Below, one piece after another: positions 10,601-14,911 of a stretch of 37,315 nucleotides of DNA (the stretch's first letter is position 1; each line of letters starts with the position of its first letter). The stretch spans positions 1-37,315 of the forward strand of contig JAAELY010000137.1 in the NCBI GenBank assembly GCA_024226335.1, written 5' to 3'. Source of the stretch: a bacterium. Lineage in GTDB: Bacteria; Myxococcota_A; UBA9160; SZUA-336. Both the position numbers and the translations under genes were made by a program. The notes under the pieces are model-generated. The model saw only the letters and a program-made list of their open reading frames with translations, searched no databases and was not told the origin of the DNA.

Positions 10601-10865
10601 TCGGAAGGACCGCGTCCGGCCGTTCTTCGCGAATAATCTGCGCCACGGTCTCACCGGTGAGCGGTTCGATGTAGGTGCGCGTAGCGAAGTCCGGGTCCGT
10701 CATGATGGTGGCCGGATTCGAATTGACCAGCACCACTTCAATGCCTTCTTCACGCAGAGCCTTGCAGGCTTGCGTGCCGGAGTAGTCGAACTCGCAGGCC
10801 TGCCCGATCACGATCGGCCCTGCGCCGATCAGCAAGATCTTCTTCAGGTCTTCTCGCTTAGGCAT
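7680..10865 (-). CDS. carB: Carbamoyl-phosphate synthase large subunit
   Basis: With CarA this makes carbamoyl phosphate from bicarbonate, ammonia and two ATP, feeding both pyrimidine and arginine synthesis. The 1061-residue length matches the family. It shows two homologous ATP-grasp halves: the first begins [23 protein letters not shown] and the second [21 protein letters not shown] (from about residue 550), each with its FGGQT/LGGQT loop. The last ~130 residues form an MGS-like allosteric domain ([17 protein letters not shown]), where UMP and similar effectors bind in relatives. The ATG at 10865 overlaps the carA stop by 8 bases. It is the last gene of the pyrimidine run, with TAA at 7680. 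Confidence 0.97.
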
Positions 10866-11991
10866 GGGACGACTCGATCAGCGTGCGGAAGTGCCCAAAG
10901 AGATGTGAAGTATCGTGGGGACCAGGAGATGCCTCCGGGTGGTACTGGACCGAAAAGATCGGTAGTTCGCGGTGGCGCAGCCCCTCGACCGTCTGATCGT
11001 TCAGGTTCAAATGTGTGATCTCCACACCATTTGCGGCCTGCAAAGAGCTGGCCTCGAGAGCAAATCCGTGATTTTCGGAGGCGATCAAGACTCGCCCGGT
11101 GTCTGCATCTTGTGCGGGTTGATTGCTGCCATGGTGGCCGAAGCGCATCTTGACCGTCCGGCCTCCGAGCGCGAGGCCCAGGATCTGGTGTCCCAGGCAG
11201 ATGCCAAATATTGGTCGTTTGCCGATGATTTCGCGCACGATCGGCGCTGCGTATTCGACGGCATCGGGATCGCCCGGCCCGTTGGACAGAAAGACTCCAT
11301 CGGGCTCCTGAGCCAGAACCTCACGGGCCGGTGTGCTCGCCGGGACGACGCGAACATCGAAACCAGCATTGACCATCTGGCGCAAGATATTGCGCTTGAT
11401 GCCGTAGTCGTACGCGATCACCTTGAGTCGCTTTGCATGAGGCTCCGGCGCTTCGAAGGTCCAGTCGGTTCCCTCGGTCCAATCGTATGCTTCGCTGCAG
11501 GTAACCTCGTCGACCAGATTTCGCCCGGCCATGGAGGGCAGTGCGGCGGCCCGTCTGCGCAATTCATCGACGTCGGCATCACCGTGCGCCACGACACCGT
11601 TTGTCGCACCGCGCGTGCGCAGACGCTGCACGACAGCGCGCGTATCGATGCCCGTGATTCCCGGAATTCCGTGCCGCACCAGATAGTCTTGAAGAGACTC
11701 GCGACTGCGCCAGGAAGAGGGAAAGTCGACGTGATCGCGTACGACGAAACCACTCAAGAAGAGACCCCGCGACTCCTCGTCCTCCGGATTACAGCCCACA
11801 TTGCCGATTTCCGGATACGTCATGCACACGATCTGTCCGGCATAGGAGGGGTCGGTGAGAATCTCTTGATAGCCGCTCATGCCCGTGTGGAAGACGACCT
11901 CGCCTACCCCCTCGGCGGGCGCGCCGAAAGCCTCGCCCTCGTAGGCGCTTCCATCGGCGAGAACCAACCAGGCTTTCCCGTTCGAACTCAA
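10858..11991 (-). CDS. carA: Carbamoyl-phosphate synthase small (glutaminase) subunit
   Basis: CarA hydrolyses glutamine and channels ammonia to CarB. The 377-residue product has the N-terminal CPSase domain ([16 protein letters not shown] near residue 40) and a class I glutamine amidotransferase domain. The catalytic triad is visible as Cys265 (GICLGHQ), His351 and Glu353 (YHPEA). The start is an ATG overlapping the pyrC stop by four bases (ATGA). Length and motifs are typical, and nothing suggests loss of function. Confidence 0.96.
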
Positions 11992-13283
11992 GCGAGCCTC
12001 CCCTCGATATCCAGCGCCCAGACACCCCGACCCCCGACCCAGGTACGCAATGCCCGTCCCTGCAGCTCCCGCTGCAAGAACGCCGAATTTCGCGAGCGCG
12101 AATGCAACGAGCCCAGCTCCAACTTCCAGACGAGATCGGGATCGACCAGTGCGATGTCGGCGGGCGAACCCACTTCGAGCGTTCCTCCGCGCAGGCCCAG
12201 TACACGCGCGGGCCGCGTAGAAAGCCGGTCGATCGCGTCGAGCGGACTCATGTGGTCGGTCCGTGCCAATTCCAACGCCACCGGCAGCGCCGTCTCGAGT
12301 CCGACCACGCCAAAAGCCGCGTTACTGAACTCCACGTCCTTCTCGTAATGGGCGTGTGGTGCATGATCGGTCGCGATGCAGTCGATCGTGCCATCGGCGA
12401 GTCCCTCGCGCAGACGCTCGCGATCTCGTGCGGTGCGCAGTGGTGGGGCCATCTTCTTGTTCGTGTCGTAGTTGCGAATCTGCTCATCCGTCAGCAGAAG
12501 ATGGTGCGGAGTGACTTCCGCTGTCACTTTGATTCCCGCGGCTTTCGCTTCGTGAATGAGATCGACCGAGCGAGCCGCCGAAACATGGGCCACGTGCAGA
12601 TGCGCACCCGTCAGGCGCGCGAGTTCGATGTCCCTGGCGACCATGACGGTCTCGGCTTCTGCCGGAGAACCCACCAGGCCGCAACAAGTCGCATGGGCGC
12701 CCTCGTGAACGACCCCCGGACCTTTCAAGTTCAGATCTTCGCAGTGAGCGATCACCGGCCGACCTACGCCGCGGGCGTACTCGAGCGCTCGTCTCATTAC
12801 GAGCGCGCTCATGATCACGGATCCATCGTCGGAAAAGGCGACCGCACCGGCACCGGCCAGGCTCGCCATTTCCGACATGATCTCTCCGCGCAGTCCCTGA
12901 GTCGCAGCTGCAATCACATGTACACGAGCGAGAGCCGACTCGCGGGCGCGCCGGAGAATAAACTCGGTAACCGCAGGCGTATCGTTGACCGGGTCGGTGT
13001 TTGCCATGGCGCATACGGTGGTGTAGCCACCTGCAACCGCTGCGTGGGTCCCCGTGCGAATATCTTCTTTGTATTCCTGACCGGGTTCGCGCAGATGCGT
13101 GTGCAGATCGACGAAGCCGGGGACAAGCCACAAGCCATCGGCTTCGATGATCTCGTCCGCCGGGCCGGAGAGATCCTTTCCCACGCGCTGGATGACGCCG
13201 TCTTCGAACTCGAGATCCCCCAGCTCGTCGCGTCTATTCGAAGGATCCAGAATCCGCGCACCGTGAATGCGAATTCGGCTCAA
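11988..13283 (-). CDS. pyrC: Dihydroorotase (class I)
   Basis: This zinc amidohydrolase cyclises carbamoyl aspartate to dihydroorotate. The 431-residue protein has the metal-binding [10 protein letters not shown] motif (His61, His63), an Asp in AFSDDGS near 154, His in PVIAHCED and HLHVAHVS, and the catalytic Asp in ATDHAPHA. In length and motifs it is the long class I type (B. subtilis PyrC-like) rather than the shorter E. coli type. Because the metal-binding residues are intact, it is likely an active enzyme and not the inactive PyrX-type partner found beside some aspartate transcarbamoylases. It overlaps pyrB by four bases upstream and carA by four bases downstream. Confidence 0.95.
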
Positions 13284-14191
13284 TTTTCGCCTCCGGTCAG
13301 CAAGTAGAGGGTGGCCATGCGCACAGCCACACCATTGGTGACCTGGTCGAGGATGCGGGACGGTTCTGCGTCTGCGACCTCACTGGCGATCTCGACACCG
13401 CGATTGATCGGCCCGGGATGGAGCACGATCGCGTCGGGCTTCGCCAACTGCAGTGTCGCCAGGGTCAGGCCAAAAGTCTGTGAGTACTCCCGGACCGACG
13501 GGAACAGCGCACCTTCCAAGCGTTCCTGCTGGATTCGCAACATCACGATCACGTCAGCCCCATCGAGCGCTTCCGCCATGGAGAAGCAGGGCTTCACGCC
13601 CAGGCCTTCAATCCCAGCGGGCATCATGGTCGGGGGTCCGGCAACCCGCACTTCAGCACCGAGTTTGGTAAACGCGTAGATGTCGGAACGAGCCACGCGA
13701 CTATGCGCGATATCTCCTACGATTGAAATCACGCGTCCATCGAGAGAGCCGAGCGACTGTCGCAGCGTGAAGGCGTCTAGCAGCGCCTGTGTCGGGTGCT
13801 CGTGACATCCGTCACCAGCATTGATGACCGGAACCCGAACACGCTCGGCCAGCATCTGCGGAACGCCTGCGGTGCGATCCCTCACCACCAGGACATCTGC
13901 ACTCATGGCCGCAAGGTTGCGGGTCATATCGGCGAGTGTTTCGGCCTTCGACAGACTCGATCCACTCGCGCTCACATTGATCGCATCCGCCGAAAGCCGT
14001 TTCGCGGCGATCTCGAAGCTGACGCGCGTTCGTGTCGAAGGTTCGAGAAACACATTGATGACGGTGCGCCCGCGCAACGTCGGCACACGCTTGATCTCGC
14101 GTTGCGACACCTCGAGCATGGCCTCTGAGGTTTCGAGAATCAGGTCGATGTCTTCACGAGTCAGGTTTTCAATGCCAAGCAAGTGCCTCAT
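13280..14191 (-). CDS. pyrB: Aspartate carbamoyltransferase catalytic subunit
   Basis: PyrB condenses carbamoyl phosphate with aspartate, the first committed step of pyrimidine synthesis. The 303-residue protein contains the carbamoyl-phosphate loop EPSTRTR (residues 50-56), [10 protein letters not shown] near 137 and the C-terminal HPGPINRG motif. No pyrI regulatory subunit gene is present, consistent with control through PyrR instead. Its ATG overlaps the pyrR stop by four bases, and its own stop overlaps the pyrC start by four bases, so translation of the whole operon is probably coupled to pyrR. Confidence 0.96.
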
Positions 14192-14772
14192 TCGACCACC
14201 ACCTCCAGCTCGCCGGCGTCTGTCTCGCGCAGTACGACCTGCTCACCGCGCGACGTGGGAATGTTCTTGCCCACGAAATCCACGCGGATCGGAAGTTCGC
14301 GGTGCCCGCGATCGACCAGCGTCGCCACCTGGATCGCTTCGGGCCGACCGAAATCGATGACCGCATCCATCGCGGAACGAACCGTGCGCCCGGTGAACAT
14401 GACATCGTCCACGAGAATCACGCGCTTGCCCGTCACAGAAAAGGGCATGCGCGTGGGCTTCGGCATGGGTCGTCGGCCGTGACCGACCACATCGTCGCGA
14501 TACAGGGTCACGTCGAGAGCTCCGAGTGGAATCTCCCGCTTGGCGATTTCCTCCAGCGCCGCGTTGATGCGCTGCCCGACAACCAGACCGCCGCTGAGGA
14601 TCGCGACCAGGGCCAGGTCTTCGGGTTCCGTGTTTCGCTCCAGGATTTCGTGAGCGATTCGCGTCGTAGCGCGCTGGATACCAGCGGGATCGAGAACGAC
14701 CCGACTGCCCGGCGCCGCCTCAGCTGAGGGCGCGGTCTTCGTATCCGCAGCAGATTTCGAGCTGCTTCCCAT
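14188..14772 (-). CDS. pyrR: PyrR: pyrimidine operon RNA-binding regulator / uracil phosphoribosyltransferase
   Basis: PyrR binds a conserved mRNA hairpin when UMP is high and represses pyr genes. Many members also have uracil phosphoribosyltransferase activity. The 194-residue product has a phosphoribosyltransferase fold with the PRPP loop [13 protein letters not shown] (about 118-130) and the TLYRDD segment typical of PyrR. The first ~22 residues are Ser/Ala-rich and not part of the fold. The start is set by the ATG at 14772, which has AAAGGA seven bases upstream. A GTG at 14796 in the same frame lies inside the leader hairpin and is rejected. As first gene of pyrR-pyrB-pyrC-carA-carB, it would control its own expression and that of coupled genes. 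Confidence 0.95.
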
Positions 14773-14780
14773 CTGCAGAT

Positions 14781-14813
14781 CCTTTACCCATCTCACTGGA
14801 TGAGCTTAAAAGG
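14781..14813 (-). promoter_or_regulatory. PyrR-binding hairpin in the pyr leader, overlapping the pyrR ribosome-binding site
   Basis: On the minus strand a perfect 4-bp upper stem (CATC at 14802-14799 with GATG at 14792-14789) closes the hexaloop CAGTGA (14798-14793). This fits the CNGNGA loop of known PyrR-binding RNAs. A perfect 5-bp lower stem (CCTTT at 14813-14809 with AAAGG at 14785-14781) follows across an asymmetric internal loop (TAAGCT opposite GGT). The 3' arm of the lower stem is the Shine-Dalgarno sequence of pyrR, whose ATG is at 14772. Binding by PyrR should therefore hide the ribosome-binding site, as described for mycobacterial pyrR, rather than act by transcription attenuation. 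No U-tract terminator follows. Confidence 0.82.
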
Positions 14814-14882: not shown

Positions 14883-14911
14883 ATGCTAATCGAAGGAAAT
14901 GCGGGCGTCAA
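14883..14911 (-). promoter_or_regulatory. Sigma-70-type promoter of the pyr operon
   Basis: The minus strand has TTGACG (14911-14906, five of six matches to the -35 consensus), a 17-base spacer and TAGCAT (14888-14883, four of six at -10). Transcription would start near 14876, giving a leader of about 104 bases that contains the PyrR-binding hairpin. The -35 box overlaps the lepB stop codon. Spacing and placement are good, but this is prediction only. Confidence 0.6.

Follow-up and report, generated by a model that had tools for sequence, protein, structure and literature searches.

A putative PyrR-binding hairpin enclosing the pyrR Shine-Dalgarno sequence is conserved in a class of Gram-negative bacteria

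In Thermus, PyrR is reportedly linked to an attenuator with a leader ORF, described by Van de Casteele et al. in 1997. The pyr attenuators of Bacillus are represented in Rfam by RF00515. A 2026 review presents PyrR control as a Gram-positive trait, with pyr control in Gram-negative bacteria relying mostly on reiterative transcription or termination (PMC13328217). Translational repression by PyrR has been published for Mycobacterium smegmatis (Fields and Switzer 2007, title cited in PMC13328217); this kind of control is therefore already known, and it is hardly documented in Gram-negatives. Here, a hairpin lying directly on pyrR was analysed in a 37,315-nucleotide stretch of bacterial DNA, referred to as the window. 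The hairpin is very likely a PyrR operator RNA acting on translation initiation, through which PyrR-UMP would repress pyrR and lower the expression of pyrB-pyrC-carA-carB.

The features of the locus are collected in Table 1. Read on the minus strand from 14812 to 14781, the hairpin RNA consists of CCUUU, a UAA bulge, GCUCAUC, the loop CAGUGA, GAUGGGU and AAAGG, followed 3' by AUCUGCAG and the pyrR start codon. In the minimum free energy fold, a lower stem of 5 bp and an upper stem of 7 bp, two of them G·U pairs, are separated on the 5' side by a 3-nt bulge (UAA), and the CNGNGA hexaloop caps the upper stem, so that the hairpin carries the hexaloop, upper stem, 5' bulge and lower stem of a PyrR-binding-loop RNA. 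An outer stem, CAGGU/AUCUG, is added by the fold in the window genome. The energy of the hairpin is -12.4 kcal/mol (z = -1.6), a weak signal on energy alone. An earlier note, made from the letters of the window, had described a CAGTGA hexaloop fitting CNGNGA on a perfect 4-bp stem, an asymmetric internal loop and a perfect 5-bp lower stem whose 3' strand, AAAGG, lies just before the pyrR ATG. Hexaloop and AAAGG strand (14785-14781, with an 8-nt spacer) are present on the minus strand, as are the four perfect upper and five perfect lower pairs; the asymmetric (6x3) loop was replaced by three further pairs (U·G, C-G and G·U), which are backed by covariation, and the UAA bulge. A GTG inside the loop (14796) was considered as the pyrR start and rejected: in relatives the start lies 3' of the hairpin, and most of them lack an in-frame start codon at that point.

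Table 1. Features of the pyr locus in the window.
Feature	Position	Strand	Evidence or remark
Promoter, sigma70-like, TTGACG-N17-TAGCAT, end of lepB	14883..14911	-	1 found vs 0.2 expected in shuffles
PyrR-binding hairpin (putative)	14781..14812	-	Sequence, fold, 56/56 relatives, covariation, single genome match each with R1 and R2
Hexaloop CAGTGA (CNGNGA)	14793..14798, +/- one or two bases	-	Class alignment, relatives
AAAGG, 3' strand of lower stem and pyrR Shine-Dalgarno	14781..14785	-	8 nt upstream of ATG 14772
pyrR, 194 aa, A/P/S-rich N-terminal extension of ~23 aa	14188..14772	-	NCBIfam NF003549, PDB PyrR relatives
pyrB, aspartate carbamoyltransferase	13280..14191	-	Start overlaps pyrR stop (ATGA)
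pyrC, dihydroorotase	11988..13283	-	TTGA overlap with pyrB
carA	10858..11991	-	TTGA overlap with pyrC
carB, 1061 aa	7680..10865	-	Named by position and N-terminal sequence; ATGCCTAA overlap with carA

The overlapping start and stop codons that had been noted from pyrR through carB were confirmed at all four junctions, with overlaps of 4, 4, 4 and 8 nt for pyrR/pyrB, pyrB/pyrC, pyrC/carA and carA/carB, respectively. Across 30 class loci the pyrR/pyrB spacing was -4 in 23, -1 in six and +2 in one, so that the genes overlap in 29/30. Translational coupling along the operon would be the expected consequence of such overlaps.

Conservation was assessed in the class to which the window genome belongs. 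LpxC is present in this class, which is therefore regarded as Gram-negative. The search for PyrR covered 60 genomes, the window genome included, and the class set spans 10 families. Of the relatives, 56 have a pyrR start that could be read, and in all 56 a hairpin lies immediately 5' of pyrR; the CNGNGA loop was a search condition for these 56 relatives and was found in all of them. The 3' strand of the stem is AAAGG in the relatives, with a few instances of AAGGG, AAAGT, AAAGC or a shifted AAGGA, and the Shine-Dalgarno sequence of pyrR falls within the hairpin stem in the window and in all 56. An ATG, GTG or TTG opening into PyrR follows the hairpin at 5-14 nt in every one of these relatives.

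When 45 class sequences were aligned, loop columns 17, 19, 21 and 22 and the TTTTAA segment were invariant, and the two N positions of the loop were free to vary. Pairing was retained in 96.5% of the cells of the class alignment and fell to 49-64% when the partner was slid by 1-3 columns. Cells with a double change numbered 45, against 18.0 in shuffles, and the covariation score was 0.299 against 0.176. The retention of hexaloop and hairpin in relatives with pyrR at this position (56/56) and the compensatory changes in the upper stem (0/500 shuffles scored as high) bore out what the earlier note had expected of a genuine operator. Sequence variation is concentrated in the upper stem. Hardly any is seen in the lower stem within the class, and within-class covariation accordingly gives no proof that the lower stem pairs. 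Such constraint is as expected if the strand doubles as the Shine-Dalgarno sequence. Hairpins from other phyla show upper-stem covariation too, and there the lower-stem pair 4-32 also covaries (CG 31, UA 14).

Upstream of the hairpin, on the assumption of a sigma70-type promoter and with transcription starts predicted from sequence, the same kind of promoter-like element as in the window was found in 43/57 class loci. In 39/57 loci the hairpin begins 8-24 nt after the -10 of a TTGAC-like/TAnnnT element; the mRNA would then usually start with the hairpin, too close for an antiterminator or an upstream anti-sequestor to fit in. The element lies 50-68 nt before the hairpin in four class loci, among them the window, where the distance of 68 nt is greater than in most relatives; this gap may hold an extra element. 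Downstream, no terminator-like site was found near the window hairpin, no run of five T occurs within 150 nt in any of the 57 class loci, and no leader ORF separates hairpin and pyrR, the frame being open into PyrR in all 56 class loci measured.

These observations bear on two alternatives. The hairpin could be the anti-antiterminator of a Bacillus-type transcription attenuator, with PyrR promoting an intrinsic terminator before pyrR, and its consensus is indeed that of the Bacillus leaders; with no run of five T within 150 nt downstream at 57/57 loci, the hairpin followed at 5-14 nt by the start codon and preceded, usually at 8-24 nt, by the -10, and no match to RF00515, this is extremely unlikely. 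Alternatively, the hairpin could cover the Shine-Dalgarno sequence of a short leader ORF, with termination averted when that ORF is translated, as in Thermus. This is the architecture of most related non-actinobacterial loci, among which the class PyrRs nest in the PyrR tree, yet it is very unlikely here, as the ORF after the hairpin opens into PyrR itself at all 56 class loci, no terminator-like T-run is seen, and no short ORF overlapping an intrinsic terminator was found at the window or class loci. The arrangement is instead that of the mycobacterial type, with the Shine-Dalgarno sequence in a stem and neither an intrinsic terminator nor a leader ORF before pyrR. The proposal in the earlier note of a translational mode in place of Bacillus-type attenuators thus fits the anatomy, including the close promoter.

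Two covariance models were used for genome-wide searches: R1, a class model with the window sequence included in its training, and R2, built from 55 hairpins of other groups that were found by pattern among the named-genome matches listed and that were either labelled with other phyla or of leader-ORF layout. Searching the 5.75-Mb genome with R2 returned one match at E<=10, the window site (E 1.3e-4, 41.8 bits), and R1 likewise returned one match. The hairpin is therefore beyond chance, and the genome shows a single operator; no further copies that could form a regulon were found with R1 or R2, with no sign of one at other pyr genes. Among 22 named genomes tested with R2, a sole genome, that of L111, holds more than one copy (two, at G210:C18:6327 and G210:C88:331).

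A scan with the Rfam PyrR model, which the earlier note had proposed as a check, did not pick up the site: the window gave no Rfam match at E<=1, and the gathering threshold of RF00515 (54 bits) was not reached. The miss is explained by RF00515 modelling a 115-nt attenuator form. RF00515 detects Bacillus-type and Smithella leaders (L098, L103 and L109 were detected) and gave no match on the one actinobacterial locus of the direct type tested, L106. Annotation based on Rfam thus probably under-reports the translational type of PyrR operator, and an entire Gram-negative class carries a conserved, covarying putative operator of this kind undetected by Rfam.

The PyrR protein of the window scores 207.6 bits against NCBIfam NF003549 (cut-off 138), has solved PyrR structures among its relatives, and retains R38, H41, R155, R158, K169 and N170. 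We take these positions, with those of the GKNxP patch, to include the RNA-contact residues of B. subtilis PyrR defined by mutants. PyrRs of the class (window 14703-14772; L009-L064) carry a variable N-terminal extension rich in A, P, S and G, of about 9 to 93 aa, which is absent from most of the actinobacterial PyrRs found here.

PyrR is also present in many other genomes of the same phylum. Neither R1 nor R2 gave a match in the phylum outside the class, and the hairpin is absent from 11 pyrR-pyrB loci of its other classes, at which the pyrR-pyrB pair is kept (L241-L244, L246, L247, L249, L253, L258, L259 and L266). The PyrRs of these 11 loci form one clade in the PyrR tree; they have lost the GKNxP patch (K169, N170 and P172 in the window protein), and H41 of the TRIAH motif is also eroded. 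In the 56 class PyrRs and 69 other hairpin-linked PyrRs, the patch is 95-100% conserved. The joint absence of RNA and protein patch is the best available sign that the hairpin is read by PyrR, and the neighbouring classes that have neither offer a natural experiment for finding the residues that recognise the RNA. A reading in which the hairpin limits translation by itself, or senses some other signal (as a thermosensor, or through another RNA-binding protein) with its likeness to the PyrR loop merely inherited, could draw on its stability, which alone might limit initiation. It is highly unlikely, since the loop bases are kept while the stems change by compensation and since loss of the hairpin accompanies loss of GKNxP, tying the RNA to PyrR.

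Under the preferred reading, that of a PyrR operator over the pyrR Shine-Dalgarno sequence, the pyrR-pyrB-pyrC-carA-carB mRNA would start at the promoter located in the end of lepB. At low UMP, the hairpin would open or lose to the ribosome, AAAGG would pair with the 16S tail and pyrR would be translated, the overlapping start codons handing ribosomes from gene to gene. When UMP is high, PyrR-UMP would bind the CNGNGA loop, the upper stem and the UAA bulge and hold the hairpin closed; with AAAGG hidden, initiation at pyrR would drop, and PyrR would limit its own synthesis. Expression of the downstream genes would fall through lost coupling, perhaps with mRNA decay or Rho-dependent polarity. 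Binding by PyrR, its UMP dependence, the degree of repression and the coupling are predictions of this model.

A pattern scan of named genomes recovered this hairpin from many phyla; the matches listed fall into two main layouts. In layout (a) it lies directly on pyrR; these matches come mostly from Actinobacteria, and also from single MAGs labelled Deltaproteobacteria (L147), Verrucomicrobia (L153) and Dehalococcoidales (L165). In layout (b) it lies on a short ORF that precedes pyrR and mostly runs through an intrinsic terminator; among the matches listed, this was seen in Nitrospinota, Smithella and other Syntrophia, Nitrospirae, Chloroflexi, Omnitrophota, Poribacteria, Zixibacteria, Ignavibacteriae and Thermus. 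In many Gram-negative phyla the hairpin covers the Shine-Dalgarno sequence of an ORF of about 15-50 codons before pyrR, mostly running through an intrinsic terminator and often encoding ..FF.. (L102-L105, L108, L110-L112, L114, L117, L124, L126-L129, L134, L135 and L138; further loci are L146, L148, L150, L154, L156, L158, L160, L175, L176 and L270-L293). As the pattern scan required a start codon, R2 matches in the phylum of a Smithella locus were taken as a set with less bias. Of these R2 loci, 19 have a terminator as well as a start codon; the ORF extends across the terminator in 16/19, compared with 12/38 for the other two frames (Fisher p 0.0002); some of the remaining R2 loci, which have no such ORF, may be Bacillus-like. 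Layout (b) resembles the Thermus attenuator as published, and a Thermus-like, translation-coupled PyrR attenuator is apparently widespread in Gram-negative phyla. The view that the translational mode is little documented outside Gram-positives, also put forward in the earlier note, stands in that the mode is known from mycobacteria; it needs amending in that hairpins sequestering a Shine-Dalgarno sequence occur in many Gram-negative phyla, mostly over leader ORFs.

In a PyrR tree of 159 columns the class forms one clade (100/98), which falls in a group supported at 96/93 and otherwise made up mostly of layout-(b) members; the placement of the class beside the neighbouring layout-(b) group has a support of 88/87 only. 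The actinobacterial direct loci fall in a separate group, which also holds Chloroflexi and is supported at 99/93. Because the two sets of direct loci lie in separate groups, the direct mode probably arose at least twice, and independently in the class. From hairpin to PyrR core, the median distance is 90 nt for class loci, 111-120 nt for leader loci and 19 nt for the other, mostly actinobacterial, direct loci; the N-terminal extension fills the space held by leader ORF and terminator in layout (b). L277 (G384:C37), a locus of the neighbouring group, has a leader ORF that passes a terminator-like hairpin and continues in frame into PyrR; it may represent a step from leader-ORF attenuation towards direct control of translation. 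We tentatively suggest that direct autorepression in the class arose independently from a leader-ORF attenuator, by fusion of the leader to pyrR, which would have left the disordered extension, and loss of the terminator. If true, the usual PyrR mode outside Bacillota would be control of ribosome loading and not Bacillus-type antitermination. The tree provides a path, open to testing, by which translation-coupled attenuation could have turned into direct repression of translation.

Compared with known systems, the window resembles the pyrR operator of M. smegmatis, as far as the cited title describes it, in having a PyrR-loop hairpin directly over the pyrR Shine-Dalgarno sequence, a layout shared with the actinobacterial direct loci found here. 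The class differs from M. smegmatis in being Gram-negative, as judged from LpxC, and in its separate place in the PyrR tree; its Shine-Dalgarno strand is AAAGG, whereas that of Actinobacteria is usually AAGGGAG, and its PyrR has an A/P/S-rich N-terminal extension. With the Bacillus pyr attenuators (RF00515) the window shares CNGNGA, the UCC..GAG top of the upper stem, the TTTAA bulge region and a lower stem ending in AAGG, but it has no antiterminator or terminator and gives no match to RF00515. As in the Thermus type, the hairpin covers a Shine-Dalgarno sequence, so that PyrR would act on ribosome loading; the ORF of the Thermus type is a short leader that extends over a terminator (compare L103 and L127), whereas the ORF in the window is pyrR itself.
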